Source: Chromatiales bacterium (GTDB lineage: Bacteria; Pseudomonadota; Gammaproteobacteria; Chromatiales; Chromatiaceae). Taken from it: DNA of 64,000 bases. Positions within the stretch are counted from its first letter, which is position 1. Each line of letters begins with the position of its first letter. The stretch lies in NCBI GenBank assembly GCA_022360905.1, contig JAKSBX010000217.1, forward strand, positions 54,094 to 118,093. Reading direction: 5' to 3'. Below are positions 3,994-40,090 of the stretch, piece after piece. Below the pieces are notes generated by a model. The model had not been told where the DNA came from, made no database searches, and saw nothing but the letters and a program-made list of their open reading frames with translations. The position numbers were made by a program, and so were the translations under genes.

Positions 3994-4255
3994 GCAGGCA
4001 ATCTTTAGGGCCTGTTAAAGCTAATCCAATCGACCCTGTTGTATCGACAACTGTACCTAATGTGGCACACAGCCTGTGCCAATTACCCACTGATCCTCTT
4101 CATGCTCGGGAAAAAATCCCAGAGGAATTGATCCATAGTTGTTGTCGAACCCATAGACATGCCGAAAAGTGTGTATGTGAGCAGATATTTTGTGCAAAGG
4201 CACGTTTGTTGCTAATAGGTCTAAGCATACTGTCCGATGAACAAGCATAAGACAG

Positions 4256-8792: not shown

Positions 8793-9391
8793 ACAGCAGG
8801 GCGCATTGGATTAGTATTATCAGGCCCTAATACGGCTTGCTTCTGAGACACAATCTTAGATCGCTTGAAGAGGCAAAATATGGCTGAAATAAAGTGTCCC
8901 AGAGGTGACACACAGTAAATCTTCAGGCCGAAAAAATGAATCACATCATATTTTCAGACTGATCTCTGATAATCCGCTTAGTAACTTCAATAGAAGAAAA
9001 TAATCGAGGCAATTCTTAAACTTTCTTAAGGATTACAATTAATGATAAATACAATTTTAAAATCAAATAATTAAGCCAACCACTTGATGCTTGCACTCAA
9101 TATCTTTTCAAGTCACGAATTAATCATTTGTTCGTTTCTTTGGCCGCCGTGGGCAGAGCAAAATCAGTAATTTTCCAATTTAATTCAGTCGCTTATCACA
9201 AATACACAGCAACTATCGACTTAATAATCAATTTCAGTTTTGCTCAATCCCTCAGAGAGATCCCACAACGCTTCTCTACATACGGTAACAGGCATAAAAC
9301 AGGCTGAACATTAGCCGGGGCGAGCCAAACTGCATTTCAGCCGCTTGTTATCGCTCAACAAATAGCACCGGCCTAAAACGAAATTATCTGT

Positions 9392-9408
9392 TTGGCACAC
9401 AAGTTGCT
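9392..9408 (+). promoter_or_regulatory. Sigma54 -24/-12 promoter upstream of xoxF
   Basis: TTGGCAC-ACAAG-TTGCT, a full match to TGGCAC-N5-TTGCW. Confidence 0.82.
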
Positions 9409-9617
9409 CAACTCTCTTTGTCGCCTGATAGGACTGCCTGTACTGACGCGACATAATTTTCACTTATAGAAAAAATTAGGAGCTGTTAATTGATCGTAAT
9501 GGAGGAGTAATACCGAGTATTTCGATTCAGACTCTGCAGTATTGTCACTTTTTTAGAATCGTCCGATATCTCTTTTGAGGCAGTCTCACTAATGAATAAA
9601 ACCCGAGGATAGAAACT

Positions 9618-11420
9618 ATGGTAACAGCAAAACGCAAAGTTCTCGCGATATGCTTCACTGCCTCTGCCATGCTAGCTGCTGCAGGTGGTGTAACAGCTAA
9701 TTCAGAGCTATTGAAGATGCAAAAAAATGCGGATGACTGGGTGATGCCTAACGGCAACTACGCCAGTACTCGCTATAGTGAATTAAATCAGATCACTGCA
9801 AACAACGTTAAAGATCTGCAAGTTGCCTGGACCTTTTCAACCGGCGTTCTGCGTGGTCACGAAGGTGGTCCCCTTGTAATGGGCGATGTGATGTATATTC
9901 ACACACCATTTCCAAATAAGGTCTTCGCATTAGACCTGAATGAAGACGGTAGAATCATCTGGAAATACGAACCACGGCAGGATACCAGTGTCATCCCTGT
10001 GATGTGCTGTGACACCGTCAATCGTGGCCTGGCCTATGGTGACGGCAAAATCATCCTGTCTCAGGCAGATACCACACTGGTCGCTCTGGATGCCAAAACC
10101 GGTAAAAAGATCTGGTCTGTTAAAAACGGTGATCCAAGCAAAGGTGAAACATCCACCGCAGCACCCATGGTGGTTAAGGATAAAGTCTACATTGGTATCT
10201 CTGGGGGTGAATTCGGTGTACGTGGATCGTTAACGGCCTACAGTCTGAAAGACGGTAAGCTGGTTTGGCGAGGCTACTCCATGGGACCGGACAGCGACAC
10301 CCTGATCGATCCAAACAAAACCACCCATCTTGGTAAGCCTGTTGGTAAAGATTCAGGCATCAACACCTGGCAGGGTGACCAATGGAAGATTGGTGGCGGC
10401 GCCACTTGGGGCTGGTACTCATATGATCCAGATGAAAATCTCGTCTATTACGGGTCCGGAAATCCAAGTACTTGGAACCCTGTTCAACGTCCTGGTGATA
10501 ACCGCTGGTCAATGACCATTTTCGCCCGCGATGCCGATTCAGGCATGACCCGCTGGCTCTATCAAATGACTCCTCATGACGAATGGGACTATGATGGCAT
10601 CAATGAGATGATCCTGGTCGACAAAAAGATCAAGGGTAAGATGCGTAAAGCCTTGGTTCATTTTGATCGTAACGGTTTTGGCTACACCATGGACAGGATT
10701 ACCGGTGAGTTGTTGGTGGCGGAAAAGTTTGATCCTGCCGTCAACTGGGCAACCCATGTGGACATGAAGACCGGTCGTCCACAAGTCGTCGCTAAATATT
10801 CAACTCACCAGAATGGTGAAGATGTCAATTCAACTGGAATCTGCCCGGCAGCATTGGGTACCAAAGATCAGCAACCGGCGAGCTACTCACCGCGCACTGG
10901 TCTGTTCTATGTTCCAACCAATCATGTCTGCATGGACTATGAGCCTTTTGAAGTCTCATACACCGCAGGTCAGCCTTATGTAGGTGCGACCCTTTCCATG
11001 TATCCGGCACCAGGCGGCACCAACCTTGGTAACTTTATCGCATGGGATGCTGACAAGGGCAAGATTGTCTGGTCCAACGAAGAACCCTTCTCAGTATGGA
11101 GTGGTGCACTCTCCACAGCAGGTGACGTTGTTTTCTACGGCACACTGGAAGGTTACCTGAAAGCGGTTGATGCCAAGTCTGGTAAAGAGCTGTATCGCTT
11201 CAAGACACCGTCAGGCATCATCGGTAACGTCAATACCTATATGCACAACGGTAAGCAGTATATCGCCGTGCTATCAGGCCTTGGCGGTTGGGCTGGAATC
11301 GGTATGGCCGCTGGTCTGACCGATCCTACAGCAGGGCTTGGTGCAGTAGGTGCCTATGCTTCACTAAGCGATTACACCCAACTCGGCGGTACATTGACTG
11401 TTTTTTCACTGCCTGATTAA
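9618..11420 (+). CDS. xoxF: Lanthanide-dependent PQQ methanol dehydrogenase XoxF
   Basis: PQQ-ADH fold; vicinal Cys [20 protein letters not shown] carries the extra Asp typical of XoxF (Ala in MxaF). Confidence 0.95.
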
Positions 11421-11504: not shown

Positions 11505-11987
11505 ATGAGGCTCAATATGCTGCACTTCAGACTTAGTAAACCCATCCTTCTTGCCACCCTTGCACTCACCTACTCGATTACATGTTATGCAACACCAAGC
11601 AAGGCTGACTACAAAAGCTTCCAACCGTCACCCGATCAACCCTACTACTTTGAAGACGGTAAGGTAGACTTTGGCACATATAATGGGTTTCGTCGTTACC
11701 ATGCTGATTGCCATGTATGCCATGGCCCTGCAGGATTGGGCAGTAGCTATGCACCGGCACTAATCGAATCCCTGAAAGTCATGAGCTGGGGTGACTTTGT
11801 CAATGTGGTAATCAGTGGTCGTGAAGGAAGAGATAACATGATCATGCCTTCATTTGCGAAAAATGTAGACATCGTAACCAATCTCTCCGATATCTATGCC
11901 TATTTAAAGGCACGTGCCGATGGTGTGATTGGAGCAAACAGACCGGCTAAGTTTCCAAAAGTTAAAAAGTTGATTGCCGACAAATAA
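11505..11987 (+). CDS. xoxG: XoxG-type cytochrome c
   Basis: Signal peptide and single CHVCH heme motif; between xoxF and xoxJ. Confidence 0.9.
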   Translation: MRLNMLHFRLSKPILLATLALTYSITCYATPSKADYKSFQPSPDQPYYFEDGKVDFGTYNGFRRYHADCHVCHGPAGLGSSYAPALIESLKVMSWGDFVNVVISGREGRDNMIMPSFAKNVDIVTNLSDIYAYLKARADGVIGANRPAKFPKVKKLIADK

Positions 11988-12090
11988 TCTGGCTGCCGAT
12001 AACAACCAAGACATGGAGTTTCCATGATAAAATAAGGCCAGTTAGTGGCAAAATCGAATTGCTGCAATCATTTCTGCAGTGGAGGTCAAA

Positions 12091-12948
12091 ATGCAAAAAA
12101 CAGGTTCTTCGTCTTACTTTAGTGCGCAGAACCTGTTTTTTTTATGCTGTTGTTTCGTCATACAGTTATCGATCACTTTACCCAGTGAAGCCAAAAACAC
12201 ATTCGAGGCTCGCAACAAAAGTTACCTGACCGTATGCGGTGATCCCAATCACCTGCCCTTTTCAAACCAAAAGATGCAGGGATTTGAAAACCGTATTGCA
12301 CAATTGATCGCCGACGACCTGGAACGCACCTTACGTTACCACTGGTGGCCACAAACTATCGGTTTTGTGCGAAACACACTGAAAGTAAGGCTCTGTGACT
12401 TAATCATGGGTGTTACTTCCGTCAACGAGATGTTACAAAACACCAACCCCTATTATCGTTCTGTCTACACTCTGGTCTACCGTGCGGAGTCTGGCCTGAA
12501 GATCACTACCCTGAGTGACCCGGTGTTAAAACAGCTTCGCATCGGTGTGGTGGCAGGCACACCACCGGCAACCGTGTTAACAAACAAAGGCTTAATGGAT
12601 AAGGTGAAGTCTTACCACCGCACTGTGGATACCAGGTTGTTTTCTCCTGCAACCCGCGCGGTTGAGGATGTTGCTTTGGATAGAATAGATATCGCTGTAA
12701 TCTGGGGACCAATTGCCGGTTATACAGCAAAAAATCAAGAGATACCGCTTACTGTAGTGCCTTTACCTGCAAAAATTGACAATGTGCCATTGGCCTTCAA
12801 TGTCTCCATGGGTATCAGGCGACGAGAACATAACTGGAAACAGCAGCTAAATCTGGAACTGGAAAAACTGGCGCCCGAAATAGAGAAAATTCTGCTCGAT
12901 TACCAGATACCGCTACTCGATGCCAACGACAACCTGATCAAGCCTTGA
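12091..12948 (+). CDS. xoxJ: XoxJ/MxaJ-type periplasmic solute-binding protein
   Basis: Signal peptide, SBP family 3-like sequence (LTVCGDPNHLPFSNQ); ATG 12091 has GGAGG RBS at 12081-12085 (track start is GTG 12079). Confidence 0.9.
   Translation: MQKTGSSSYFSAQNLFFLCCCFVIQLSITLPSEAKNTFEARNKSYLTVCGDPNHLPFSNQKMQGFENRIAQLIADDLERTLRYHWWPQTIGFVRNTLKVRLCDLIMGVTSVNEMLQNTNPYYRSVYTLVYRAESGLKITTLSDPVLKQLRIGVVAGTPPATVLTNKGLMDKVKSYHRTVDTRLFSPATRAVEDVALDRIDIAVIWGPIAGYTAKNQEIPLTVVPLPAKIDNVPLAFNVSMGIRRREHNWKQQLNLELEKLAPEIEKILLDYQIPLLDANDNLIKP
12095..12143 (+). terminator. Terminator-like hairpin plus T-tract inside the 5' end of xoxJ
   Basis: 14-bp perfect stem aaaaaacaggttct / agaacctgtttttt, 19-nt loop, 8-T run at 12136-12143. 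Confidence 0.55.
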
Positions 12949-13573: not shown

Positions 13574-14200
13574 TCAATCGAGGTAGTAGGCGATCGTACG
13601 AGCCAAAACACCGAGTTTTTCCTCAACCAGTCTTGGCCTGGTACAGAGGTGTTGGATGAAGGACTCACGCTCATCGAACATCCGCTGTTTGATCTCCATC
13701 TCATTTTGCATTATCGCCAGGCGCTGTTGTGCTTCAGGTGAACCATCTTCCTGTAATCGCACCATCTCATCGAGCTCTTCACTAAGCTGATTGGCCCTTT
13801 CTGCCTGGCCGTTGGCATAGCGGATAATGCCATTGAGCGCCTTTTGACGCTGTATATTCAACTGGGATATGATGCCGGCGAACAGTAGGGTAAGCTTCCG
13901 ATCCTTGACCTCAGGCCGTTGTTTTTCAGCAAACCCGGCAATATGCTTGTCTGCCATCTCGATTTCATATTCAGGCGAGACCAGCTGTCTGACCAAGACT
14001 TCAACAGCTTGGTCTTTGTCCCAACTCTGTTCCAATCCGACAATCTCCGGCCCGGCCCAAACAACAGCGGCGGGAACCTCTGCAACAAACGCTTGCTCGC
14101 AGGGCCAGTTCGTCAATTCATCTGCTTGTAACAGCGAATTTGTAGAAGCTGCAATTACAAATGTTGCTGTTAGCTGTCTGAAAGTCATCTTTTTCAACAT
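13574..14200 (-). CDS. Uncharacterised exported protein at the end of the PQQ-associated ABC operon
   Basis: N-terminal signal sequence; adjacent to the ABC permease gene, same strand. Confidence 0.7.
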   Translation of the reverse strand: MLKKMTFRQLTATFVIAASTNSLLQADELTNWPCEQAFVAEVPAAVVWAGPEIVGLEQSWDKDQAVEVLVRQLVSPEYEIEMADKHIAGFAEKQRPEVKDRKLTLLFAGIISQLNIQRQKALNGIIRYANGQAERANQLSEELDEMVRLQEDGSPEAQQRLAIMQNEMEIKQRMFDERESFIQHLCTRPRLVEEKLGVLARTIAYYLD

Positions 14201-15007
14201 TTAACCTGCTCCCTGTTTTCTACTCATTAAACCTCTTGCAGGATCGTAACCATAAAGCGCACCGGCCAGAAAAAACAACAGGGAACCGACGACTGCAAAA
14301 AATGCGACCCAACCTATTTGACCATAGAGTGAGAACCTGATCAGTTCGACGGCATGTGTAAACGGGTTGAAGCGACAGATCTCATAGAGAAGCAGGCTCG
14401 AATCCTTGATTCTCCAGAGTGGATAGAGTGCTGAGGAGGCGAAAAACATGGGGAAAATCACAAAATTCATCACCCCGGCAAAGTTCTCAAGCTGTTTTAT
14501 GGCTGAAGAGAGTAGCAAACCTAAGGCTCCCAGCATCAGCCCGGATAAAAGGAGGGCGGGAAATGCCAGTAGATAACCCATCAGCGGTGGTTGTACGTCC
14601 CAAAACCAGGCTATACCAAGAAAAAGATAGACCTGGGCAATGGCAACCAGTGTTCCTGCGGTCAACTTGCAGAGTAGAAGATACCATCGGGGAAAAGGAC
14701 TCACCATCAGCATACGCATACTGCCCATCTCCCTGTCGTAGACCATGGAGAGTGAGCTCTGCATACCGCTAAACAGTAGGATCATCGCTGCCAGACCTGG
14801 AACGATATACTCTTCATAAAGGATGTAGGTCTCATAAGGTGGAATGATAGAGACACCCAGAACTGAGCGAAATCCTGCAGCAAAGATAAACAACCACACC
14901 AGAGGCCGGACCAAGGCACCGAAAAACCGTTCACGCTGATGCAGAAAGCGTAAGGCTTCCCGAACGAAGATACCCCACATGCAACGGTAATATTGGACGG
15001 CTTTCAT
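14201..15007 (-). CDS. ABC-2 type permease, PQQ-associated/LutF-like
   Basis: Hydrophobic ABC-2 membrane protein, overlapping the ATPase gene. Confidence 0.88.
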   Translation of the reverse strand: MKAVQYYRCMWGIFVREALRFLHQRERFFGALVRPLVWLFIFAAGFRSVLGVSIIPPYETYILYEEYIVPGLAAMILLFSGMQSSLSMVYDREMGSMRMLMVSPFPRWYLLLCKLTAGTLVAIAQVYLFLGIAWFWDVQPPLMGYLLAFPALLLSGLMLGALGLLLSSAIKQLENFAGVMNFVIFPMFFASSALYPLWRIKDSSLLLYEICRFNPFTHAVELIRFSLYGQIGWVAFFAVVGSLLFFLAGALYGYDPARGLMSRKQGAG

Positions 15008-15741
15008 GATGACTCACTGCGTGTGAGGTGATTGAACGCCTGTTTTACACTGTCTGTTCCAGTCTGCTGCATAATCTGTTTTGCACTACCCCTGGCAAGG
15101 ATTTTTCCGCCATGAAGTATCACCAATTGATCCTCAGGCTCTACCTCGTCGACCAGATGAGTCGCCCATAAAACCCCAATGCCATCTGCGCTGCAGCGGT
15201 TTCTTACCTGTTGCAGGATAGCCTGGCGGCTATGGATATCGAGTCCTACTGTCGGCTCGTCAGCCAAGAGCAATTGTGGTTGATGTAACAGTGCCCTTAC
15301 CAGCTCGACCCGCCGTCTTTGTCCACCGCTCAACGTGCGCACTCGATCTGCAGCACGATCTGCCAGCCCGACCTCCTCCATTGCCAACTGCAATCGATCG
15401 GCTATTTTACTGGGATTGATCCCCTGAAGTGCGCAGTGGTAGTGGAGATTCTGTATGAGTGACAGGTCCAGATCCAGAGTGGGCTGCTGAAAAACAACCC
15501 CAAGTTGGGCAAGTGCCTTTCGACTCTGATGTTTCAAGTCATAGCCATAGATACTGATTGAGCCCCGGGGACTGACGAATAGCCGGGTGATCAATGAGAA
15601 AAGCGTTGTTTTACCTGCTCCATTAACCCCCAGTAAGACACAGAACTCACCTGGATCAAGGGTAAAGCTGACCTGATCCAACACCGGCCGTTTGGTGTAT
15701 GAAAAGCTGACGTCCAACAATCTAAGTGCGGCTTCACTCAT
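15004..15741 (-). CDS. ABC transporter ATP-binding protein, PQQ-associated/LutE-like
   Basis: Walker A GVNGAGKTT, LSGGQRRR, LLADEPTVGLD. Confidence 0.92.
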   Translation of the reverse strand: MSEAALRLLDVSFSYTKRPVLDQVSFTLDPGEFCVLLGVNGAGKTTLFSLITRLFVSPRGSISIYGYDLKHQSRKALAQLGVVFQQPTLDLDLSLIQNLHYHCALQGINPSKIADRLQLAMEEVGLADRAADRVRTLSGGQRRRVELVRALLHQPQLLLADEPTVGLDIHSRQAILQQVRNRCSADGIGVLWATHLVDEVEPEDQLVILHGGKILARGSAKQIMQQTGTDSVKQAFNHLTRSESS

Positions 15742-16739
15742 TGCCGTACCACGATCCCCCAGGGCAGGCGCCCTACTCTGATCGATTTTTTCACTTTTAA
15801 GCGCCCGACATCGATGACTGAAACATCGTTACTCACCCCATTGGTGGTAAAGACAAATTTCTCATCGGGAGAAAAGGCGAGATTCCAAACCCTTTGACCG
15901 ACAAGAAGATATTTTTCAATCTCAAAGGAACTCGTATCAATTACCGCGACCCTGGCCGCCGGTCCCAAGGCAATAAACGCCTGTTTGCCATCGTCGGTTA
16001 TTTTAATACCTACCGGTTGGATCAAATCCTTGTGTATTCCAGGAATCTTAAATTTGATTTTTTTTAGGATTTTTCTGCTCTGTGTATCGATCACACTGAC
16101 CGTACCGCCAATCTCGGATGAAACCCAAACCTGTTTCCCATCATTTGAAAACTGCGCGACTCTAGGTCGTTGATCCACAAGTACGTTATCCTCCACTTTC
16201 ATGTTTTGCAAATTGATGAAGTGAGCCATATTAGTTGTTTCAGAGGTGTTGACCAGCCATTTACCGTCGGGACTTATACCCATCCCTTCAGGCTCCACAC
16301 CGACCTGTATCTCAGTGACTTTCACCCGTTTTTCGATATCCACCATGGTAACCATATTGTCATCTTCATTAGCCGCATAGAGATACTTATCCTGCGGACC
16401 AATCACCAACAGTTCCGGGTCCGGACCGGATGGAAGTGTGTGAGTGACCTTCATCGTCTGCAGATCCAGTACTTCGATATGATCCGCATCACTAGTACAG
16501 ATATAGAGGGTTTTTCCGTCATTGCTGAGAGCGATACCACGGGGGCGTTCACCAACGGATACCTCATCAACTACCTTCAGGCTGTCGCCATCGATGACCG
16601 TTATTTTATTGTCTTTCTCACTACTTACATAGATTGTGTAAGCGGATACCGGTGTACTCAATAAAACAAACAGAATCGATCCAATGATGGGTTGAAGAAA
16701 GCTATCTAAAAATCCGTTTTGAGAAGTTTTGAATAACAT
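15738..16739 (-). CDS. PQQ-dependent catabolism-associated YVTN beta-propeller protein (LutD-like)
   Basis: Repeated YVTN-type blades (VSSEKDNKITVIDGDSL..., ANEDDNMVTMVDI). Confidence 0.88.
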   Translation of the reverse strand: MLFKTSQNGFLDSFLQPIIGSILFVLLSTPVSAYTIYVSSEKDNKITVIDGDSLKVVDEVSVGERPRGIALSNDGKTLYICTSDADHIEVLDLQTMKVTHTLPSGPDPELLVIGPQDKYLYAANEDDNMVTMVDIEKRVKVTEIQVGVEPEGMGISPDGKWLVNTSETTNMAHFINLQNMKVEDNVLVDQRPRVAQFSNDGKQVWVSSEIGGTVSVIDTQSRKILKKIKFKIPGIHKDLIQPVGIKITDDGKQAFIALGPAARVAVIDTSSFEIEKYLLVGQRVWNLAFSPDEKFVFTTNGVSNDVSVIDVGRLKVKKSIRVGRLPWGIVVRQ

Positions 16740-16787
16740 AGGATGACTCCCCGTTTACTGTTCTATATCTGGATATAGCAAAATGCA

Positions 16788-18011
16788 CTATTTCTTACAC
16801 CTACTCTCAGGACGGTCGTAACCCAAAGTATCGAGGGTTGTAAACTGATGAAGAAAACCCTTCTGGGGTGAAACCGAGATCATTATTTTCGCTGAGGTGA
16901 TAAGCAGGGGTTGCCGTAGTTGATTACTCCAGTCACGAAAGCTGACCGGTCTACCTTTAAAAGCGGCGAGACTGAACTCAGGACCGATGATGTAGGGTAT
17001 TAGTTTGTCCACCTGACCACTGGATGTGCGCGTAGCCGCTTCACCGATGGTGCGGACTGCCAACCATGCAGAGAAGTCACGATCCGTCATCCAGCGATTA
17101 TGCTGTTCATTGAAGCGACGTTGAAATTGGGTCGCCCCCCACTGTTCATGGACCCCACTCCAGGCCGCAGGAGAAAGACCTTGTGTGCCACCAACAGGTC
17201 TTGGGCGATAAGTACGGTAAGTAAGAAATTCGCCAAATTCCTTCGACTCATCGGCGACAATCAGAATATCGTAATCTCCGACCTGGCTGAACTCGTTGAC
17301 CACTTGCTGTTCCCGGTTATGGCCTGAATCTGTACGTCTCGCCCCCGGCTCGAAAGTCCACTGTTTCTGCTCGACGATTTTATGCCCAAAACGCTTGGCG
17401 GCACGTTTCAGGGCCTCGGCATAGGCTTTGTCCCTCGGATGACGACCGACCACCAAAAACCACTCTGTCCAGCGTTTCCAGGCTAGATATTGGGCGAGGG
17501 CGTCAGCCAGCATGGCCCGGCTTGGCATAGTGTGCAGCAGATTTGCTCGGCACTCGTTCAGCCTTAGATTGTCATCTGTGGCGCCGATGTTGAAGAGCAA
17601 GCTCGCTTTGGCATCTGGGTGATCGGCTATTTCGAGTAGCTTTTTAGCGGGTAAATTGAGTAGAAAAAGCCTGATACCCTGCTTGTGCAGTTTTCTGAAG
17701 GCCTGGATGACCGGTCCATCGGGTTTTACTTTTTCGACAGTGAGCGTAAACGACTGCCCGGTGAAACGCCCGGTAGTATTATTGTCATGAATACCCTGCA
17801 ATGCACCGGCCTCACCGATATCTTCGATTACCGGCTGCAAGAGTGACAAGGGAATATGACGCCCCTCCTCTTCGGTGATCAAGCCGATGGGTATATCAAG
17901 CGTATCAGCATGGAGAGGCTCCAGGTAGATCGCACCCAATAAAAAAATGGCTAATAGGATACTCATCATTACGGATTCAACATTATTATTCTTGGACAAC
18001 GGTTGTTTCAA
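16788..18011 (-). CDS. ABC substrate-binding protein, PQQ-dependent alcohol dehydrogenase system (LutA-like)
   Basis: Signal peptide, type-I periplasmic binding fold sequence; first gene of the operon. Confidence 0.82.
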   Translation of the reverse strand: MKQPLSKNNNVESVMMSILLAIFLLGAIYLEPLHADTLDIPIGLITEEEGRHIPLSLLQPVIEDIGEAGALQGIHDNNTTGRFTGQSFTLTVEKVKPDGPVIQAFRKLHKQGIRLFLLNLPAKKLLEIADHPDAKASLLFNIGATDDNLRLNECRANLLHTMPSRAMLADALAQYLAWKRWTEWFLVVGRHPRDKAYAEALKRAAKRFGHKIVEQKQWTFEPGARRTDSGHNREQQVVNEFSQVGDYDILIVADESKEFGEFLTYRTYRPRPVGGTQGLSPAAWSGVHEQWGATQFQRRFNEQHNRWMTDRDFSAWLAVRTIGEAATRTSSGQVDKLIPYIIGPEFSLAAFKGRPVSFRDWSNQLRQPLLITSAKIMISVSPQKGFLHQFTTLDTLGYDRPESRCKK

Positions 18012-18053: not shown

Positions 18054-18069
18054 TGCAAATTTTGTACCA
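18054..18069 (-). promoter_or_regulatory. Candidate sigma54 promoter of the PQQ/Lut-like ABC operon
   Basis: Minus strand TGGTAC-AAAAT-TTGCA, one mismatch to consensus, about 45 nt upstream of the start codon. Confidence 0.65.
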
Positions 18070-18384
18070 TGGACAATTTAGAGACCCGCGCTGGTAACTA
18101 AAGGTTTTGATCACTGGTCCCCTGAGTACTCTCTGGTGAATCAATCAGTGTCATCATTGACACACACTGTCGAATCATCTGTTTCAGCTGGTCAGTGCAT
18201 TTCAACCATTACATCACCTGGTAGCCTCATCATAGTCTAACTATTAAAAGGTCAAGAAGGGATTTTATCCCGAGAAGGTTATTAGAATATAAGCGTAGCT
18301 TTATAGACCCAAGAATCGGGCATGAATATTGCTGGAATTGATTCACTTGTGAGATCAATAACCTGTCACATCCTGGAGGTCCGC

Positions 18385-22694: not shown

Positions 22695-23882
22695 CTATTC
22701 CCACTCCAGCTCAGCAAATGCTGCGGTGACGTTACGACCATGATATTCATTAAAAAGCAACCAGTTGCCCTCTTCCTCCAGTCCAACAGTTTCAACAGCC
22801 TGAGCAATGGTGCCACCCTCACTGATAATCTGCCGAATCTGATTGGCGATTAGATCAAGATAACGACGCTGTGTTGCCAACGCCGACCGCCAGGCGGTCA
22901 CCACGGGACCATGACCCGGCACAACTTGACTTATTGGCTGACACGGCTGCTGATTTTGATTATGGCGGGTAGTTGATAGATCTCTGTTTTCAATGGTTAA
23001 ATTATGGCAATTTGAAGCAATCAGCCCGTCCATTACCTTTAACCACCCCAACAAACTGCCATCCATGACAGGTATTCGTTCTACGAAAAGCAGATCAGAT
23101 AACCACAATGTGCCCGATTGAGTGTCAAACACACTCAAGTCATTGTTGGTGTGTGCTGTTGGATAGGCTTTCAATTCCAACCAACGATCCCCTAGATCCA
23201 AACGCATCCCCTGAGTGACTGATACGGAATGTGAGGGCATGACAAGTTGTGTATGTTCAGAACTATCTCCTAATAAACGCTTCATATTATTGAGATAGGT
23301 GGTCTTGCGTCTTGCCAATGCATCGGCAAGATTCTGATGACCAATCACCGTCGGATTATCCTCGTTGAAGGCTGCCGTACCCAACGCATGATCCGGATGC
23401 ATATGGGTAAGTATGACGTAGGCAATAGGCAGATCAGTCACAGCCCTGATATGCTCTCTGAGACGCAGACCTTGCTGGAAGCTGCTTCCAGTATCGATAA
23501 CTGCCACACGTTCGCTGCCGACGATAAATCCAGTGTTCGCTATCCGGCCTTTGTTGGATCGGGAGAAATCCTCATGCACACCAAGCCAGAGATAGATACC
23601 TGGAGCGATCTTTTGTAAATCTTCACCAGCCGCCACTCCCGTTGATGAGAGGGCAAGAAGAAGTACAATCCATGACTGGCTGAAACAGGCCGAACTATAT
23701 TGAATATTGAGTATCTTCTGAAATAGTAAACTAGTATCAAGCTGGAGCAGATTGGCATATATTTTGCCAAAATTAATAAACATGCCGTGTTGACGAGTTG
23801 TTATGACTTGTTTCATTTCTGGCAGAGATAGCAAAAAAAATAGTTCAACCTGTTGGAGGAAAAATGAATCCTGGTAAGGCAT
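22695..23882 (-). CDS. Quinoprotein relay system zinc metallohydrolase (MBL fold); start uncertain
   Basis: THMHPDH metallo-beta-lactamase motif; next to the SoxYZ-like carrier. Confidence 0.88.
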   Translation of the reverse strand: MPYQDSFFLQQVELFFLLSLPEMKQVITTRQHGMFINFGKIYANLLQLDTSLLFQKILNIQYSSACFSQSWIVLLLALSSTGVAAGEDLQKIAPGIYLWLGVHEDFSRSNKGRIANTGFIVGSERVAVIDTGSSFQQGLRLREHIRAVTDLPIAYVILTHMHPDHALGTAAFNEDNPTVIGHQNLADALARRKTTYLNNMKRLLGDSSEHTQLVMPSHSVSVTQGMRLDLGDRWLELKAYPTAHTNNDLSVFDTQSGTLWLSDLLFVERIPVMDGSLLGWLKVMDGLIASNCHNLTIENRDLSTTRHNQNQQPCQPISQVVPGHGPVVTAWRSALATQRRYLDLIANQIRQIISEGGTIAQAVETVGLEEEGNWLLFNEYHGRNVTAAFAELEWE

Positions 23883-24883
23883 TGGTTGGCAGAAAAATCG
23901 CTCAGATCATCACGGCTAAGGGACCACTGATTGTTGCATTAATCCTTTTGTTCCATACGACATGCACTTTTTCTGCCAACAGCATAAAAATGGCAGTGTT
24001 AAAGTTTGGTACAGTCAACTGGGAACTCGATGTTATAAAACGGCACGATCTGGATCGTCAGCAGGGTTTCAGCTTGGACGTTGTAGAAATGGCCGGTAAA
24101 CAGGCAACCATGGTTGCACTTCAGGCTGGATCCGTCGATATCGCGGTCAGTGACTGGATCTGGGTCTCAAGGCAACGTAATGAGGGTAAGGCTTTCACCT
24201 TCGTCCCCTACTCCACTGCACTCGGTGCCCTGGTAGTCCCTCAGGACTCCCCGGTCCGTGAGATCAAGGAGCTGCAGGGATTACGGCTGGGTATCGCCGG
24301 TGGACCGTTGGACAAGAGTTGGTTGCTGTTACAGGCACTGGCTTTGCAGCAATCCGGGATTGAACTCGATAAAAATTTAAGCCCGGTATTTGCCGCCCCA
24401 CCACTGCTCAATCAGCAACTGAAGCAGGGACGTATCGATGCCGTTCTCAATTTCTGGCCCTATGTTGCCAGGCTTGAAGCGATTGGCATGCGGCAGCTTA
24501 TCAGCGTGCAGGATGTTTCCCGGGGGTTGGGGATCCGCAGTCAGGTACCTTTTGTCGGTTATGTATTCGATGAACAGTGGGCGAATCAACATCAAAATCT
24601 CATTCAGGCTTTTATCCGCGCAGCCACGAAAGCAAAACAGATCATGCTGAATTCTGACCAGGAGTGGGAAAAGCTGAGACCCTTGATGAAAGCCCCGGAT
24701 GAAGCCACATTTCTCGCTTTACGCGATGGATTCAGAGCGGGCATTCCCAATCAGTGGGGTGCGGCCGAACAGAATGATGCAAAGCAACTGTTTGATATAC
24801 TTTTCAAATTGGGTGGTAAAAAGCTCGTTGGTAATACCACTCAACTTGCAGAGGGTACATTCTGGTCAGGCACTGTAGAGTAG
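23864..24883 (+). CDS. NitT/TauT-type ABC substrate-binding protein
   Basis: SsuA/TauA-like sequence; followed by permease and ATPase. Confidence 0.85.
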   Translation: MNPGKALVGRKIAQIITAKGPLIVALILLFHTTCTFSANSIKMAVLKFGTVNWELDVIKRHDLDRQQGFSLDVVEMAGKQATMVALQAGSVDIAVSDWIWVSRQRNEGKAFTFVPYSTALGALVVPQDSPVREIKELQGLRLGIAGGPLDKSWLLLQALALQQSGIELDKNLSPVFAAPPLLNQQLKQGRIDAVLNFWPYVARLEAIGMRQLISVQDVSRGLGIRSQVPFVGYVFDEQWANQHQNLIQAFIRAATKAKQIMLNSDQEWEKLRPLMKAPDEATFLALRDGFRAGIPNQWGAAEQNDAKQLFDILFKLGGKKLVGNTTQLAEGTFWSGTVE

Positions 24884-24887
24884 GATC

Positions 24888-25634
24888 TTGAACTTTCCTA
24901 TATACATACGACAGTTCTCTTCCATATTACTGTTGCTGCTGATATGGCATGTAGCAGCCATATTGTGGCAGAACAGTATGCTGCCTTCTCCCAGTTCAGT
25001 CGTCACCCTGATCTGGCAGGAAATGCTCAATGGTCAGCTCTGGTTTCACCTCGGTGCAACCCTATTGCGGGTATTGGTCTCTTTTATTGTTGCCATGCTG
25101 ATAGGCAGCGTTATCGGAATCATTATGGGCCGATCACGGGTCACGGATCAGTTTCTGGATCCCTGGTTGATTATCTTTCTCAACATACCCGCTTTGGTGA
25201 TCATCATCCTGGCTTATGTCTGGTTTGGTCTGGAGGAACTTACTGCGATATTTGCAATTGCCATTAACAAGATACCCAATGTGATCGTGACAATGCGTGA
25301 AGGCGCGCGTACCCTGGATGAAGATTACAATCAGATGGCGCATAGCTTCAATCTCGGCCGGCGTAAGATACTCTTTTACATCACCCTGCCCCAGTTACTG
25401 CCATTTTTTGCCGTTGCAGCCCGTTCCGGAATCGCATTGATATGGAAAATTGTGCTAGTGGTGGAACTATTGGGTCGAAGCAATGGGGTAGGTTTTCAGC
25501 TACATCTCTATTTTCAGCTGTTTGATGTTACCGGGATAATGGCCTACAGCTTCTCCTTCATCCTCATCATGTTGACCATTGAATATGCACTCCTGCAGCC
25601 CTTAGAGCGCAAAGTCAATCGCTGGCGTGGATAA
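24888..25634 (+). CDS. NitT/TauT-type ABC permease
   Basis: BPD_transp_1-like membrane protein. Confidence 0.9.
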   Translation: MNFPIYIRQFSSILLLLLIWHVAAILWQNSMLPSPSSVVTLIWQEMLNGQLWFHLGATLLRVLVSFIVAMLIGSVIGIIMGRSRVTDQFLDPWLIIFLNIPALVIIILAYVWFGLEELTAIFAIAINKIPNVIVTMREGARTLDEDYNQMAHSFNLGRRKILFYITLPQLLPFFAVAARSGIALIWKIVLVVELLGRSNGVGFQLHLYFQLFDVTGIMAYSFSFILIMLTIEYALLQPLERKVNRWRG

Positions 25635-26376
25635 TTCTATGTTAGAAATCGAAGTTAGAAACAAAAGCTTCATCCAATCAGACTCAGAGACTCCGCTCTC
25701 GGTTCTGACTGACATACAGATCGAGCTCAATGAGGGAGAATTTGTCGCTTTGGTAGGCCCATCCGGTTGTGGCAAAAGCACATTATTGCAAATCATTTCA
25801 GGATTGGATAAAGATTTCGAGGGGGCGATTCGCTGGCAGAATGGCGCCAGTCAACATTTGGAGAAGCTGGGTTACGTTTTTCAGAATCCCAGACTACTGC
25901 CCTGGCTCAATCTCTACGACAATATCGCTCTGGTACTGAACAACCCAGTTGCCAAACAAGCAGAGATTGCCGCTCTGTTAGACGCGACCGGTCTCAGTGC
26001 ATTCACAACTTACCACCCGGCCCAGCTTTCAATCGGCATGCAGAGGCGAGCCGCTCTGGCCCGTGCCTTTGTCATCGAGCCTTCTCTATTGATCATGGAT
26101 GAACCGTTCGTCTCTCTGGATCGACCTACCGCTGTCCAGCTCAGAGCGCTGTTGCTGGAGATTTTGGCCGTCAGACGCACAACTGTAATCTTTGTCACCC
26201 ATGATCTGTATGAAGCCACCCAGCTCGCCGACCGTATCCTCTTCCTTTCGACTTCCCCCGCCAAAGTGATCGGTGAGACGCCAGTGACCCTGGCGCGGGA
26301 TCAGCGTGGTGATGAAACGGCGGTGAATCAAAAATATGCAGAGATCAGGACGTTGTTTACTCGTTTATACCCATAA
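25627..26376 (+). CDS. NitT/TauT-type ABC ATP-binding protein
   Basis: GPSGCGKST, LLIMDEPF; ABC signature reads LSIGMQRR. Confidence 0.9.
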   Translation: MDNSMLEIEVRNKSFIQSDSETPLSVLTDIQIELNEGEFVALVGPSGCGKSTLLQIISGLDKDFEGAIRWQNGASQHLEKLGYVFQNPRLLPWLNLYDNIALVLNNPVAKQAEIAALLDATGLSAFTTYHPAQLSIGMQRRAALARAFVIEPSLLIMDEPFVSLDRPTAVQLRALLLEILAVRRTTVIFVTHDLYEATQLADRILFLSTSPAKVIGETPVTLARDQRGDETAVNQKYAEIRTLFTRLYP

Positions 26377-26595
26377 TAATCACGGTTAATCCGATTCCTG
26401 CTGTTTGTATGGAAGATGTCTTGTTGAAGTGACAGGCTGATGTCACTGTGCCAGAAAAGTGGAGCACTGCCTGAACCCGGATTCCGCCTGCAAAGGTAAG
26501 GGTTATTGATCCGTCGATGAGTAAAGGGGTGAGAGGGACTTACCACCAAAGCTTCGATCAGAACGGCAGATTGATTGGCATGGGCACCAACCAAA

Positions 26596-26611
26596 TGGCA
26601 CATGAATTGCA
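26596..26611 (+). promoter_or_regulatory. Sigma54 -24/-12 promoter of the formate dehydrogenase operon
   Basis: TGGCAC-ATGAA-TTGCA, perfect consensus. Confidence 0.82.
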
Positions 26612-26655
26612 GATACTGGTTTATAAAATCAGAAATCACCCCAAGAGAAATTCAC

Positions 26656-28365
26656 TTGTCACCTTCATCAAAACCACAAAAGCGCCGTTTTGGTCAAAAC
26701 AAAGGCCGCCATATCGATCCTAGCGCCCGGCAAACTGTTCGTCAGTTATTGGACAACATGCCGCGTCGGGCCGATCTGCTCATCGAAGCACTACACAAGT
26801 TACAGGATCATCTGGGTTACATCTCTAAGGATCTACTGAGTGCGCTCGCTGATGAGATGAATCTGTCCAGTGCTGAAGTCTATGAAGTAGCCAGCTTCTA
26901 CCACCATTTTGATCTGGTGGCTGAGGGTCAGCAACCGCCTCCTCCCTTGACAATCCGGGTCTGTGAATCCATTTCATGCAATCTTGCCGGTGCTGAAAAA
27001 CTGATTGACGCGCTGAGTAAGGCACTGGGTGACAAGCTGAGAATCCAGCGGGTTCCCTGTGTCGGACGGTGCCAGAGTGCACCGGTTGCGGTCGTCGGAA
27101 AATTACCGGTTTCTCAAGCTGATGTGAATAAAGTCCGTCAATTGGTTGAAACTGGCCAGACTGAACCCGATCTGCCCGATGGCTACATCAACTACAAAGC
27201 CTATTGTACGCAAGGTGGGTACAAGCTGCTGCAACAGATTCAGAGCAGCGAAACCGACAGTGATGAGCACTATCCATTATCCATAGAGCAGGTGATAGAG
27301 ACGCTGGAGAGTGCCAACTTGAGAGGCCTGGGTGGCGCCGGGTTTCCGGCTGGCCGAAAATGGCGAATTCTCAGAGATCAGCCTGCCCCCCGGTTGTTGG
27401 CAGTCAATATCGATGAGGGGGAACCCGGTACCTTTAAAGACCGTTTCTACCTGGAACAGGATCCCCACAGATTTTTAGAAGGCACTCTGATTGCTGCCAA
27501 GGTTGTCGGCATCAGTGAAATCTATATCTATTTAAGGGATGAATACGCCGCAATCCGCCATATGCTGGAACGGGAAATAGCCACCCTGCAGGCAGACCCA
27601 CCCTCTCCCCTACCGCCGATACATCTGCGCCGGGGTGCCGGTGCCTATATCTGCGGGGAAGAGTCGGCAATGATCGAGTCCATTGAGGGTAAGCGTGGCA
27701 TGCCTCGTCAGCGCCCCCCCTATGTGGCGCAGGTCGGTCTGTTTGGTCATCCGACCCTGGAACACAACATGGAAACGCTCTATTGGGTGCGTGAGCTATT
27801 GGAGAAAGGCGCCGACTGGTTTAGCCGACAGGGGCGAAATGGGCGGCATGGTCTGCGTAGTTTTTCAGTGAGTGGTCGAGTGAAAAATCCCGGCGTCTAT
27901 CTTGCACCGGCGGGCATCACTCTGTTGGAGCTGATTGATGAATACTGTGGCGGTATGCTCGAGGGTCATCAGCTCTACGCCTATTTTCCCGGAGGCGCAT
28001 CAGGCGGCATTCTGCCGGCATCTCTGGCAGATATTCCACTCGATTTCGATACTCTGCAACCCCACGGTTGTTTTATAGGTTCAGCCGCAATCATCGTGCT
28101 TTCACAACAGGATAGCGTACGAGATGCCGCGCTGAATGCGATGCGTTTTTTCGCTCACGAATCCTGCGGCCAGTGCACTCCTTGCCGGGTAGGTACAGAG
28201 AAGGCCGTTCACTTGATGGAGAAACAAACGTGGGACCGTAGCTTACTCGAAGAGCTCTCATCAGTCATGATCGACGCTTCAATTTGCGGTCTTGGCCAGG
28301 CCGCGCCTAACCCCATGCTGAGTGTCTTGAAATATTTTCCCCAGGAGTTCGATTATGGCGAGTGA
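26656..28365 (+). CDS. NAD-dependent formate dehydrogenase beta subunit, NuoE/NuoF fusion type
   Basis: NuoE-like 2Fe-2S domain, then NuoF-like FMN/NAD and 4Fe-4S domain; start moved to TTG 26656 because the promoter lies inside the track ORF. Confidence 0.88.
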   Translation: MSPSSKPQKRRFGQNKGRHIDPSARQTVRQLLDNMPRRADLLIEALHKLQDHLGYISKDLLSALADEMNLSSAEVYEVASFYHHFDLVAEGQQPPPPLTIRVCESISCNLAGAEKLIDALSKALGDKLRIQRVPCVGRCQSAPVAVVGKLPVSQADVNKVRQLVETGQTEPDLPDGYINYKAYCTQGGYKLLQQIQSSETDSDEHYPLSIEQVIETLESANLRGLGGAGFPAGRKWRILRDQPAPRLLAVNIDEGEPGTFKDRFYLEQDPHRFLEGTLIAAKVVGISEIYIYLRDEYAAIRHMLEREIATLQADPPSPLPPIHLRRGAGAYICGEESAMIESIEGKRGMPRQRPPYVAQVGLFGHPTLEHNMETLYWVRELLEKGADWFSRQGRNGRHGLRSFSVSGRVKNPGVYLAPAGITLLELIDEYCGGMLEGHQLYAYFPGGASGGILPASLADIPLDFDTLQPHGCFIGSAAIIVLSQQDSVRDAALNAMRFFAHESCGQCTPCRVGTEKAVHLMEKQTWDRSLLEELSSVMIDASICGLGQAAPNPMLSVLKYFPQEFDYGE

Positions 28366-31096
28366 CTCAAAGTCGGCACCAGCCTCAGTAAACTTTACGC
28401 TGGATGGCAACTCCATCAGAGCCATGCCTGGTGAAACGGTATTGAATGCAGCCCAACGGGCAGGTATCGAAATACCGCACCTCTGCTATAAGGAGGGTTT
28501 GAGAGCTGATGGAAACTGCCGTGCCTGTGTGGTTGAGATTGAAGGCGAGCGCGCCCTGGCCGCCTCATGCTGCAGGACGCCCACTGAGGGAATGGTGATC
28601 AACAGTCAAAGTAAACGGCCACGCAATGCCCAAAAACTGGTACTGGAACTGCTAAAATCGGATGTTGGGAAGAGTGACTACACACCCAACAATGAACTCG
28701 ACCATTGGTCGAAATTTCTGCAAGTCGGCAAACCCCGCTTCCCCACACGTCACCAACCTGCCCCTGATCACTCCCATCCAGCCATTGCAGTCAATCTCGA
28801 TGCCTGCATACAGTGCACCAGATGCTTGCGTGCCTGCCGTGAGATTCAGGTCAACAATGTCATTGGATATGCCCGACGGGGTTCCGCTTCTACGATTGTC
28901 TTCGATAGCGAAGAGCCGTTGGCCAACAGTAGCTGTGTAGCCTGTGGCGAGTGCGTGCAGGCCTGCCCCACCGGAGCATTGATGCCGGCGAAAGAGGCGG
29001 GCAAGGTAGAGACTGAAAAGCAGGTTGATTCCATCTGTCCATATTGCGGTGTTGGCTGCCAACTCACCTTCCATATCGATGAGAATCGCATCCGGTTTGT
29101 CACTGGGCGTGATGGTCCCGCCAATAAAAATCGGCTCTGTGTCAAAGGACGTTATGGATTCGATTACATCCACCACAAACATCGTCTGACGGTTCCGCTG
29201 ATTAGACGCGATGATGTGCCGAAACAAGCCGTACTGGCGCTCGATCACGAGAATCCTTTCGCAGATTTTCGCGAGGCCAGCTGGGAGGAGGCCCTCTCAT
29301 TTGCGGCCCAAGGTCTACGCAAGCTACGTGACACCCAAGGTCCTTCCGCATTGGCTGGATTCGGTTCGGCGAAAGGCTCAAACGAAGAGGCATATCTGTT
29401 TCAGAAACTGGTTCGGACCGGTTTCGGCAGCAACAATGTTGATCACTGCACCCGTCTATGTCACGCCTCGTCCGTGGTGGCGTTACTGGAAATGATCGGC
29501 TCTGGAGCCGTATCAAATCCAGTGGCAGATGTGGAGGATGCGGAAGTGATTCTGATCGTTGGTTCCAATACCACTGAGAATCATCCGGTCGCCGCCACTT
29601 TTATCAAGAACCAGGTAAAGGCGGGCAAGACACTGATCGTAATGGATCCCCGGCGTACCGCCATCGCCGGCCATGCCAGCCATTTTCTACAGTTCAAACC
29701 GGATACCGATGTCGCTCTGTTGAATGCCATCATGCATGCAGTCATAGATGAGGATCTGGTGGATCATGCTTTTATCGAGCAGCGGACCACGGGTTACCAA
29801 GCGCTGGAATCTCACCTTCGCGACTTCACTCCGGAAGTCATGGCGCCCATTTGCGGTATCGATGCCGAGACCATTCGTCAGGTGGCGAAAATCTACGCCG
29901 CATCCAAAGCCTCGATCATTTTGTGGGGTATGGGGGTTTCACAGCATGTACATGGAACGGACAATGCGCGTGCACTGATCTCATTGGCACTGATGACCGG
30001 CCAAATCGGTAGGCCTGGCACTGGACTCCACCCACTGCGCGGTCAGAATAATGTTCAGGGCGCATCTGATGTTGGACTGATCCCGATGGTGTTTCCCGAC
30101 TATCAACGTGTCGACAACCCGGAGGTTCGCCAAAAATTCGAAAATCTCTGGCAGACGACCCTCGATCCAAAGCCCGGCTTGACGGTGGTTGAGATAATGC
30201 ATGCGATCACGGATCAAACCATCCGGGGTATGTACATCATGGGTGAAAATCCTGCCATGTCGGATCCCAATCTGAATCATGCCCGTAAAGCGCTATCAAG
30301 CCTCCAGCATCTGGTGGTACAGGACATCTTCATGACCGAAACGGCCTGGTACGCCGATGTCATTCTCCCCGCCTCCGCTTTCGCAGAGAAGACCGGCAGC
30401 TTTACCAATACCGACCGACGGGTTCAACTCGGCCGGCAGGCGATCGAGCCACCGGGGGAAGCCCGACAGGATCTGCAGATCATCCAAGAGATGGCAAACA
30501 GAATGGGACTCGACTGGCACTATGAGCATCCCAAACAGGTGTTCGATGAGATGCGCCGGGCGATGCCAAGTATTGCCGGAATCAGCTGGGAACGCCTGCA
30601 GCAGAATGGCTCGGTCACCTACCCCTGTGAAGATGAAAATGATCCCGGTCAGGCTGTGATCTTTACCGAAACTTTTCCCACACCCTCCGGCAAAGCGAGC
30701 TTTACCCCCGCTCCATTTACTAACGCCGACGAACTGCCGGACCAGGAGTACCCCTGGGTGCTGATCACCGGCCGACAATTGGAGCATTGGCATACCGGCG
30801 CAATGACCCGTCGTGCCGAGATGCTGGACAAGATCGAGCCAGTTCCAGTGGCCAGTCTGCACCCTGAGGAGCTTTCGAGGCTGGCCATATCACCGGGCAG
30901 TCCGATCAAGCTTCAGTCCAGACGGGGCGTAGTCACTGCCTATGCTCGTGCAGACCAGGGCATCTCAAAGGGTCAGGTGTTCCTGCCGTTCTGCTATCAC
31001 GAGGCTGCAGCCAATCTGTTGACCAATGAAGCACTCGATCCATCCGCCAAAATCCCTGAGTTCAAATTCTGCGCAATTCAGGTTGCAGCGGGTTAA
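28355..31096 (+). CDS. Formate dehydrogenase alpha subunit (Mo/W-bis-MGD; Cys type)
   Basis: N-terminal 2Fe-2S and 4Fe-4S clusters, CPYCGVGC motif, HCTRLCHASS catalytic-Cys region. Confidence 0.93.
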   Translation: MASDSKSAPASVNFTLDGNSIRAMPGETVLNAAQRAGIEIPHLCYKEGLRADGNCRACVVEIEGERALAASCCRTPTEGMVINSQSKRPRNAQKLVLELLKSDVGKSDYTPNNELDHWSKFLQVGKPRFPTRHQPAPDHSHPAIAVNLDACIQCTRCLRACREIQVNNVIGYARRGSASTIVFDSEEPLANSSCVACGECVQACPTGALMPAKEAGKVETEKQVDSICPYCGVGCQLTFHIDENRIRFVTGRDGPANKNRLCVKGRYGFDYIHHKHRLTVPLIRRDDVPKQAVLALDHENPFADFREASWEEALSFAAQGLRKLRDTQGPSALAGFGSAKGSNEEAYLFQKLVRTGFGSNNVDHCTRLCHASSVVALLEMIGSGAVSNPVADVEDAEVILIVGSNTTENHPVAATFIKNQVKAGKTLIVMDPRRTAIAGHASHFLQFKPDTDVALLNAIMHAVIDEDLVDHAFIEQRTTGYQALESHLRDFTPEVMAPICGIDAETIRQVAKIYAASKASIILWGMGVSQHVHGTDNARALISLALMTGQIGRPGTGLHPLRGQNNVQGASDVGLIPMVFPDYQRVDNPEVRQKFENLWQTTLDPKPGLTVVEIMHAITDQTIRGMYIMGENPAMSDPNLNHARKALSSLQHLVVQDIFMTETAWYADVILPASAFAEKTGSFTNTDRRVQLGRQAIEPPGEARQDLQIIQEMANRMGLDWHYEHPKQVFDEMRRAMPSIAGISWERLQQNGSVTYPCEDENDPGQAVIFTETFPTPSGKASFTPAPFTNADELPDQEYPWVLITGRQLEHWHTGAMTRRAEMLDKIEPVPVASLHPEELSRLAISPGSPIKLQSRRGVVTAYARADQGISKGQVFLPFCYHEAAANLLTNEALDPSAKIPEFKFCAIQVAAG

Positions 31097-33783: not shown

Positions 33784-35742
33784 GTGGAGAGTTCCATCCT
33801 TCATAAGGATATCAGTAGTCATGAAGATCTGGTGCGGGCCGCTTTGAGTGGTAGCCACGTCGTTCAGTCTGCCGATATCGATGAGATCACTCTCCGTTCC
33901 TGGCGTCGTTGCACAGACGAATACGGTCTCGATCCGGGCACTTCACCCGATCCTGTTATCATCGATCGCCAAGATCTGCGTGAGCGCCTGCAGAAGTACG
34001 AGCGATTACTGGATATAGCTCGTATTGAGATGACCGATCTCTATCAGCAACTGGCGGGTTCCGGTCATGCAATCATGCTGACTGACAAGGATGGCATTCT
34101 GTTGAACTTCATCGGTGATCCACAGTTTACCGACGCGGCAGCCCATGCAGGCATGCAACTAGGTGCTGTGTGGAGCGAAACGGTTCAAGGCACCAATGGC
34201 ATGGGAACCTGCCTGATCGAACAGAAACCTCTGGTCATCCATAAGCAATCCCATTTTTTTGCCCGCAATGCCAGTTTGACCTGCTCCGCTGCACCGATCT
34301 TCGATCCTCATGGAGAAATTCTCGCGGTACTCGATGCCTCCAGTGAATCTAAAATGGCCCAACAACATACCATGGTGTTGTTGAACATGTCGGCCCAGGT
34401 AATCGAAAACCGGGTCTTCTTCTGTGCCATGAAAGAGGCCTTTGTACTGCGCTTTCACTCTCGCTCCGAATTTATCAGCACACTCGGTGAAGGTGCCATT
34501 GCATTCAATACCGAAGGGGAAATTCAGGCGATCAACAGAAGCGCCATGTTTCAGCTTAATTTAGATTCACCACATGATATTGTCGGTCACCATATACAAC
34601 AACATTTCACGACATCGCTTACATCTTTACTAAAACAGGCGAATACTCACGCATTCCCGATTCGAGAGACACAGCATGGCAAGCGTTTCTTCGCCACGCT
34701 CCAATTACCTGAAAAGACCTGCCGCAAACAACAACGTGCTGCCCCCTGGGAAGCCAAAAGTTCACAGCTAAAAACCACATCCAGGCCTGCTCCTGACGCT
34801 TTGAACGCACTGCATTTCAATGAACCGCGCATGGCCCGCAATGTGAAAACAGCGGTCAAACTGATAGAACGGGATATTCCCTGCATGCTGTTTGGCGAGA
34901 CAGGCACAGGCAAGGAGATGTTTGCGCGCGCACTGCATAATACCAGTTCGCGTTACAACAATGCCTTCGTTGCAGTCAACTGCGCCTCTTTGCCTGAAAG
35001 CCTGATTGAGAGTGAGCTGTTTGGTTATCGGCCAGGTGCATTTACTGGCGCAAACCGTGAAGGCAGCCGGGGTAAAATACTTCAGGCAGATGGCGGCACC
35101 CTGTTTCTGGATGAAATCGGTGATATGCCCTTGCACCTTCAAGCCAGATTGCTGAGAGTGCTTGAGGAGCGTGAGGTCACACCACTCGGCGGAGAAAAAC
35201 CCGTCAGAGTTTCCATAAAGTTGATCAGTGCCACCCACCATGATATTCAAAGCATGGTCGAAGACGGGACGTTTCGCGAAGACCTCTACTACCGTTTACA
35301 TGGCCTCTCCCTAACCATGCCTGCGCTGAGAGATCGAACCGACAAGGTTGATCTGATCAAACATCTCGGTCAGCTGGAAGCCGGTACAAATGAAGCATTA
35401 CAATGGGACCCGGAGGCACTGAAAATACTTGAAAACTTCCGTTGGCCCGGCAACATCAGGCAGCTACGAAACGTCATGCGTACCGTTACCGCACTATGTG
35501 AAGACAACAGGGTAACCCCGGATGACTTACCGGATGAAGTTCGGGAAACCACTTTCTACGATGAGCTATCGGAAAGCTCAGAGGCCCCCCTCAATGCACT
35601 GGCAATTGCAGAAAGGGATGCCTTGTTGGTCGAACTGGAAGAGATGCACTGGAATATCAGCCGGGTTGCCAAAAAGCTCGATCTGAGCAGGAATACACTC
35701 TACCGGCGGATGAAGAGATTTGGTATATCACCACCCAGATAG
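33784..35742 (+). CDS. Sigma54-dependent Fis-family activator (AcoR-like)
   Basis: GAF-like N-terminus, AAA+ GETGTGKE, GAFTGA, Fis HTH at C-terminus. Confidence 0.93.
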   Translation: MESSILHKDISSHEDLVRAALSGSHVVQSADIDEITLRSWRRCTDEYGLDPGTSPDPVIIDRQDLRERLQKYERLLDIARIEMTDLYQQLAGSGHAIMLTDKDGILLNFIGDPQFTDAAAHAGMQLGAVWSETVQGTNGMGTCLIEQKPLVIHKQSHFFARNASLTCSAAPIFDPHGEILAVLDASSESKMAQQHTMVLLNMSAQVIENRVFFCAMKEAFVLRFHSRSEFISTLGEGAIAFNTEGEIQAINRSAMFQLNLDSPHDIVGHHIQQHFTTSLTSLLKQANTHAFPIRETQHGKRFFATLQLPEKTCRKQQRAAPWEAKSSQLKTTSRPAPDALNALHFNEPRMARNVKTAVKLIERDIPCMLFGETGTGKEMFARALHNTSSRYNNAFVAVNCASLPESLIESELFGYRPGAFTGANREGSRGKILQADGGTLFLDEIGDMPLHLQARLLRVLEEREVTPLGGEKPVRVSIKLISATHHDIQSMVEDGTFREDLYYRLHGLSLTMPALRDRTDKVDLIKHLGQLEAGTNEALQWDPEALKILENFRWPGNIRQLRNVMRTVTALCEDNRVTPDDLPDEVRETTFYDELSESSEAPLNALAIAERDALLVELEEMHWNISRVAKKLDLSRNTLYRRMKRFGISPPR

Positions 35743-37786: not shown

Positions 37787-38163
37787 ATCTTATTTCTTGA
37801 TCATGTATCTAAATAGATTAAATAATATGATAATATTGGTTGTTCAATATTGCTATCCGGTATCCCCATAAATCGGCTCTGGATTTTGTCGTGAGTCCAT
37901 TCACCACAGGTCTCCGCATGGCAGGCACATCGGACCATCGATTTCCACCAATCTCATTGACAGTGGACAAGCCAGGTGCTCTGATTGAGTAATACGGATT
38001 CGCTAGCTCAATAACCGCTGATTGTGTTGTTACAATGCCTCACCTCTTACATTATAAATGCTATATATCATACTGTATTAAATATAATTTATGGTTATAA
38101 TCACTAACCAATCATAACAATCCATTCGCTCCGGCTCCGTCAAATAGAGTTTTCACAACGAAT

Positions 38164-40044: not shown

Positions 40045-40090
40045 CGATCACCTCGACCACTGCCACATCAATTTGGAGTACCCTGAAAAC

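Follow-up and report, generated by a model that had tools for sequence, protein, structure and literature searches.

We analysed a window of 64 kb, the whole stretch of DNA presented above, which carries a methylotrophy island. The xoxF gene (9618-11420, + strand) encodes a PQQ methanol dehydrogenase of the lanthanide type: its product matches TIGR03075 with 778.6 bits (cut-off 480) and has the extra Asp of the DYD motif (WDYDGINE), from which lanthanide dependence is predicted. It is followed on the same strand by a gene for a xoxG-like cytochrome c (11505-11987), which matches TIGR03874 with an E-value of 7.6e-40 and 136 bits, below the cut-off of 161.75, and by a gene for a xoxJ-like periplasmic protein (12079-12948; TIGR03871, above cut-off). 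On the - strand, an operon at 13574-18011 encodes PedC, PedA, a beta-propeller protein and a PQQ_ABC_bind protein, with matches above cut-off to TIGR03861, TIGR03864, TIGR03866 and TIGR03863 (the families PedC, PQQ_ABC_ATP, PQQ_ABC_repeats and PQQ_ABC_bind). This is a putative PedABC-type ABC transporter for a lanthanide or an alcohol; PedA1A2BC of P. putida has been described as a lanthanide transporter (PMC12997753). An SRPBCC gene is divergent from this operon.

The + strand further encodes fdhB/fdhA, an NAD-linked formate dehydrogenase operon (26575-31096; TIGR01591, 777 bits), a GAF-AAA+-Fis sigma54 activator (bEBP) of 652 aa (33784-35742), and afpA, a dihydromethanopterin-reductase-like flavoprotein (36131-36661) that is a stable neighbour of the bEBP. 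Upstream of the fdh operon lies an NMT1-type ABC transporter (binding protein, permease and ATPase, 23864-26376). It is missing from the islands of several congeners, adjoins the bEBP in other genera (G091, G211, G166, G181), and is possibly linked to C1 compounds or to lanthanides. The block at 36863-53559, with a LysR regulator, a TPR glycosyltransferase-like ORF and others, had no counterpart in the islands of the relatives compared and looks like an insertion into the methylotrophy island.

The -24/-12 site upstream of xoxF

The initial annotation described a full -24/-12 match at 9392-9408, about 210 nt upstream of the XoxF start. The match (TTGGCACACAAGTTGCT, + strand) is indeed without mismatch: it fits GG-N10-GC and the consensus YTGGCACR-N4-TTGCW, reaches the maximal matrix score, and is separated from the xoxF ATG at 9618 by 209 nt. 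Counting from the C of the -12 element (9407), the predicted +1 is at about 9419. The genome has rpoN (PF00309, 69.1 bits, C86). No other zero-mismatch match to TTGGCAC-N5-TTGCT was found on either strand of the window, where mononucleotide composition predicts 0.007. Since about 0.5 exact matches are expected by the same composition in the whole genome, the motif in one genome is suggestive and no proof of function. Allowing up to two mismatches, the window has 15 matches where 7.0 are expected, so its weaker -24/-12 matches are mostly noise.

We compared 22 genomes of the genus, 12 of which have a xoxF ortholog (84-100% protein identity). When the upstream regions are aligned in one orientation, TGGCACACA[AT]GTTGC is identical in all 12. 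Genome scans found this 15-mer in exactly these xoxF carriers and in none of the 10 genomes without xoxF. The DNA flanking the promoter is unalignable among congeners, including the stretch between the promoter and the far upstream region. Across eight distinct genomes, the invariant runs of at least 4 nt from -230 to the ATG are TGGCACACA, GTTGC, TGTCGC, GACTGCCTGTA, GCGACA, CAGTC, AATAAA and the ribosome-binding run GAGGAT. The -24/-12 elements are the sole conserved promoter-like block 5' of the predicted +1.

The site is also found beyond the genus. In five other genera of the family, seven genomes have a XoxF with 82-86% identity, and in each of them -24/-12 matches lie at plausible distances upstream of the gene (e.g., CTGGCACATAAGTTGCT, CTGGCACAGGGTTTGCT and GTGGCATAACAATTGCT). 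Their promoter scores are 13.5-15.2. The 52 xoxF upstream regions that served as negatives reach at most 13.7, and one of them overlaps the range of the relatives (51/52 are below). Alphaproteobacterial xoxF upstream regions showed no comparable sites. The half match expected per genome could by itself have produced a functionless chance match at 9392-9408, but the conservation in 12/12 congeners within unalignable DNA and the good matches in five other genera make this reading extremely improbable; as far as comparative evidence goes, it is refuted.

One could also envisage that the main promoter of xoxF is of the sigma70 type, or constitutive, and that the sigma54 site is secondary. Multiple promoters are common among genes, and Ca. 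Thiodiazotropha has methanol dehydrogenase among its most abundant transcripts in both seasons (PMC12172469). We regard this as quite unlikely, because the -24/-12 block has no conserved promoter-like competitor and because a simple consensus scan of the + strand from 9072 to the ATG, of a kind that can miss sigma70 sites, reported no sigma70-like site.

The leader of xoxF has a second invariant element. A dyad (TGTCGC-N23-GCGACA, 9419-9453, + strand), with loop GACTGCCTGTA, begins exactly at the predicted +1; it is conserved in the 12 congeners, where the 11-nt block of its loop is invariant, and was not seen in other genera. Another block, GGCAGTCTCAC (9579-9589, + strand), lies about 30 nt 5' of the ATG and is a partial complement of the dyad loop; its CAGTC core is invariant. 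A pseudoknot between the loop and this block was considered and rejected: the pairs never covary, the wider pairing does not hold in three genomes, and the folding stability of the 5' UTR does not exceed that of shuffled sequences (z +0.85). The pairs of the dyad stem itself never vary among congeners, and thus show no covariation, and the dyad had no match in Rfam. Given these invariant pairs, the ordinary stability of the leader and the lack of an Rfam family, we ascribe to it no function at the RNA or the DNA level, be it as a 5' mRNA hairpin or as a protein site.

The upstream palindrome and the island activator

A palindrome (GTGTCCCAGAGGTGACAC, 8894-8911) lies about 480 bp 5' of the -24 box in the window. 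Its genus consensus is GTGTCAC-N4-GTGACAC, and it is present in all 12 congeners with xoxF and in the seven genomes of the five other family genera. The distance to the promoter is long and variable (about 150-510 bp); in the genus, it ranges from 257 to about 515 bp. With a matrix built from the genus only, the seven relatives score 9.6-29 bits, whereas none of the 52 negatives exceeds 8.0; the lowest margin is that of L226, which is just above. An unrelated gammaproteobacterial contig (L109) has the promoter and a bEBP ortholog (52% identity), and no significant palindrome by the matrix upstream of its xoxF; a palindrome picked out there by eye was dropped, as the matrix does not support it. 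About 40 bp 3' of the palindrome is another conserved block (8937-8947), which reads TGAATCACATC in 9/12 congeners and TGGACCACATC in the other three. Position and conservation make the distal dyad a good candidate enhancer (UAS) for the bEBP, and the xoxF-side palindrome (GTGTCACAGCAGTGACAC) a candidate target of its Fis domain. Elsewhere in the genome, palindrome matches are intragenic, in coding sequence, or without a nearby -24/-12 site, and we therefore claim no wider regulon.

The product of 33784-35742 has the domains of a competent activator: a Sigma54_activat AAA+ domain with Walker A (GETGTGKE) and GAFTGA motifs, and a Fis-type HTH. The initial annotation called it AcoR-like, which holds for its AcoR/DhaR-like architecture and not for membership in a curated family. 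Its best NCBIfam match, nearly full length, is DhaR (NF008485), with 321.5 bits for a cut-off of 551, and we rejected this assignment as below the curated threshold. We also rejected a role as AcoR acetoin regulator, since most genera have afpA, fhcA, fdh or further C1 genes next to the bEBP rather than acetoin dehydrogenase genes. Outside the genus, whether xoxF is present or not, the bEBP usually adjoins afpA and is often near fhcA or fdh, which points to a C1-metabolic signal. Four genomes without a strict xoxF match (G024, G149, G144 and G221; L252, L253, L260 and L261) have the ortholog beside afpA and fhcA, which suggests an original role in the H4MPT C1 pathway. The domain search found no receiver domain in the protein, and no histidine kinase was found near xoxF among the window genes scanned; the locus thus has neither the receiver domain nor the adjacent kinase of a two-component lanthanide switch. 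The lack of a receiver domain makes direct ligand gating likelier than control by phosphorelay.

The distribution of the activator follows that of xoxF. Orthologs with 74-96% identity are found in 12/12 congeners with xoxF and in 0/10 without. Order-wide, an ortholog (at least 57% identity in the xoxF genomes) occurs in 19/19 genomes with xoxF versus 13/193 without, a co-occurrence confounded by shared ancestry and by the inheritance of the island partly as a block. All six xoxF genera are among the 11 genera with the activator, out of 62 (hypergeometric 7.5e-6, computed by hand and uncorrected for shared ancestry). A further 19 xoxF genomes without a convincing promoter site have no ortholog: where there is a match at all, it is a paralog of at most 40%. 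In one genome (G224), some 860 kb separate the bEBP from xoxF, and mere linkage does not account for the association in that case.

The genome has about 18 bEBP-like matches. One of them, a second AcoR-like protein with 43% identity to the island bEBP, adjoins a second PQQ alcohol dehydrogenase that has the DYD motif and is about 41% identical to XoxF (G000:C271, L159, 92-4731); the pair is also present in congeners lacking xoxF. A sigma54-dependent xoxF could hence be served by another activator, either this AcoR-like paralog or a lanthanide-sensing two-component bEBP, all the more as the core of the recognition helix (SRNTLYR) is common to bEBP paralogs. However, the paralog persists in two genomes devoid of xoxF (G016 and G008), the palindrome is absent from the second-dehydrogenase loci, and it is the orthologs of the island bEBP that track the xoxF promoter across genera. 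We thus find control by another activator unlikely, and favour the island bEBP.

Further sigma54-type sites and the proposed regulon

Several other operons of the island have conserved sigma54-type sites. The Ped-type operon is preceded by ATGGTACAAAATTTGCA (18054-18070, - strand), a -24/-12 site present in 9/9 genomes compared. The divergent SRPBCC gene is preceded by CGGGCATGAATATTGCT (18317-18333, + strand; 8/8 genomes compared), and between the two genes is a palindrome, GTGTCA-N4-TGACAC (18148-18163; 9/9), a candidate UAS whose spacing is 2 bp shorter than that of the xoxF palindrome. The formate dehydrogenase operon has ATGGCACATGAATTGCA (26595-26611, + strand) in 10/10 genomes and also in two other genera (G096 and G089); no clear copy of the xoxF-type or Ped-type palindrome was found upstream of it. 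Two of these sites overlap mechanically called starts: the SRPBCC site that of 18322, for which the likely true start is a GTG at 18385, and the fdh site falls within the called ORF 26575-28365. Both starts should therefore be moved downstream. A sigma54-like sequence before pqqA/pqqB (AAGGCACGTTTGTTGCT, 4197-4213) is clear in 3/5 genomes compared.

The proposal that a sigma54 promoter drives xoxF is therefore supported at the level of comparative sequence analysis, by a promoter kept amid unalignable DNA, a conserved upstream palindrome and a co-occurring bEBP. We consider it probable that sigma54-RNA polymerase transcribes xoxF and that the bEBP of the island, gated by a ligand, activates a sigma54 regulon that serves the periplasmic oxidation of methanol and the oxidation of formate. 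Transcription would proceed from 9392-9408 and start near 9419. The bEBP most likely binds GTGTCAC-N4-GTGACAC about 480 bp upstream, and its GAF domain would bind a small signal molecule, for which methanol, formaldehyde, formate or another C1 metabolite is the probable candidate. The signal-bound protein would then loop over and use ATP to open the xoxF promoter. Probable further targets of the same bEBP are the formate dehydrogenase operon and the divergent PedABC-type and SRPBCC genes, which would give a methanol-to-CO2 regulon. Given that fdh lacks a clear palindrome and that the genome has many other bEBPs, a single activator for all four promoters is probable, yet unproven.

A more elaborate scheme would have two layers of xoxF control: the C1-ligand-gated sigma54 regulon (xoxF, formate dehydrogenase and the PedABC-type transporter) and, on top of it, the conserved 5' element at +1, acting as an RNA or DNA regulatory site of a kind not described before and conceivably as an entry point for lanthanide or PQQ status. 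We regard this addition as speculative and rather doubtful.

Known systems and the probable host

The lanthanide switches described so far are two-component systems: PedS2/PedR2, MxbDM/MxcQE/MxaB and MxaY (PMC6115532). They likewise control lanthanide-type PQQ dehydrogenases, including XoxF, but they consist of a histidine kinase and a response regulator, whereas we find here a one-component GAF bEBP without receiver domain, predicted to act with sigma54. This part of the contrast drawn by the initial annotation stands. Its novelty is narrower than first implied, because there is a precedent for a PQQ alcohol dehydrogenase run by sigma54: exaA of Azospirillum brasilense Sp7 is reported to depend on sigma54 and a LuxR-type regulator (Singh et al. 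2017, J Bacteriol 199:e00035-17, as cited in PMC6115532 and PMC12826043). As far as these citing accounts go, that system concerns a glycerol-induced ExaA with a LuxR-type partner in an alphaproteobacterium, in contrast with XoxF, a GAF-AAA+ bEBP and a palindromic candidate enhancer here. Soluble methane monooxygenase operons are under MmoR/RpoN (PMC5874634) and resemble our locus in that a one-carbon oxidation operon has a sigma54 promoter and is clustered with a bEBP gene; the target of MmoR is methane monooxygenase, whereas here the targets would be methanol dehydrogenase, formate dehydrogenase and the PedABC-type transporter. Finally, bEBPs of the DhaR/AcoR family have the GAF-AAA+-Fis architecture in common with the island bEBP, but they relate to dihydroxyacetone or acetoin, whereas its neighbourhood is one of H4MPT/formate C1 metabolism. 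The literature searched, which covered few subscription papers, contained no account of xoxF being under sigma54.

Ca. Thiodiazotropha, symbionts of lucinids, have a xoxF-like methanol dehydrogenase, pqq genes and, close by, the H4MPT pathway (PMC8307296). The gene content of the source genome matches theirs, and it probably comes from a lucinid-clam symbiont. In Ca. Thiodiazotropha, genes for most methanol-oxidation steps and for formate dehydrogenase rise together, seasonally, before upwelling (PMC12172469), as one regulon would predict. The analysis supplies concrete sites and a concrete regulator that are testable in a cultivable relative. If true, a GAF-gated sigma54 regulon would be a separate solution to the control of lanthanide methanol oxidation in sulfur-oxidising gammaproteobacteria. 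A single C1 signal would then govern XoxF, the PedABC-type transporter and formate oxidation alike, which could account for the concerted seasonal increase reported for methanol-oxidation genes in such symbionts.
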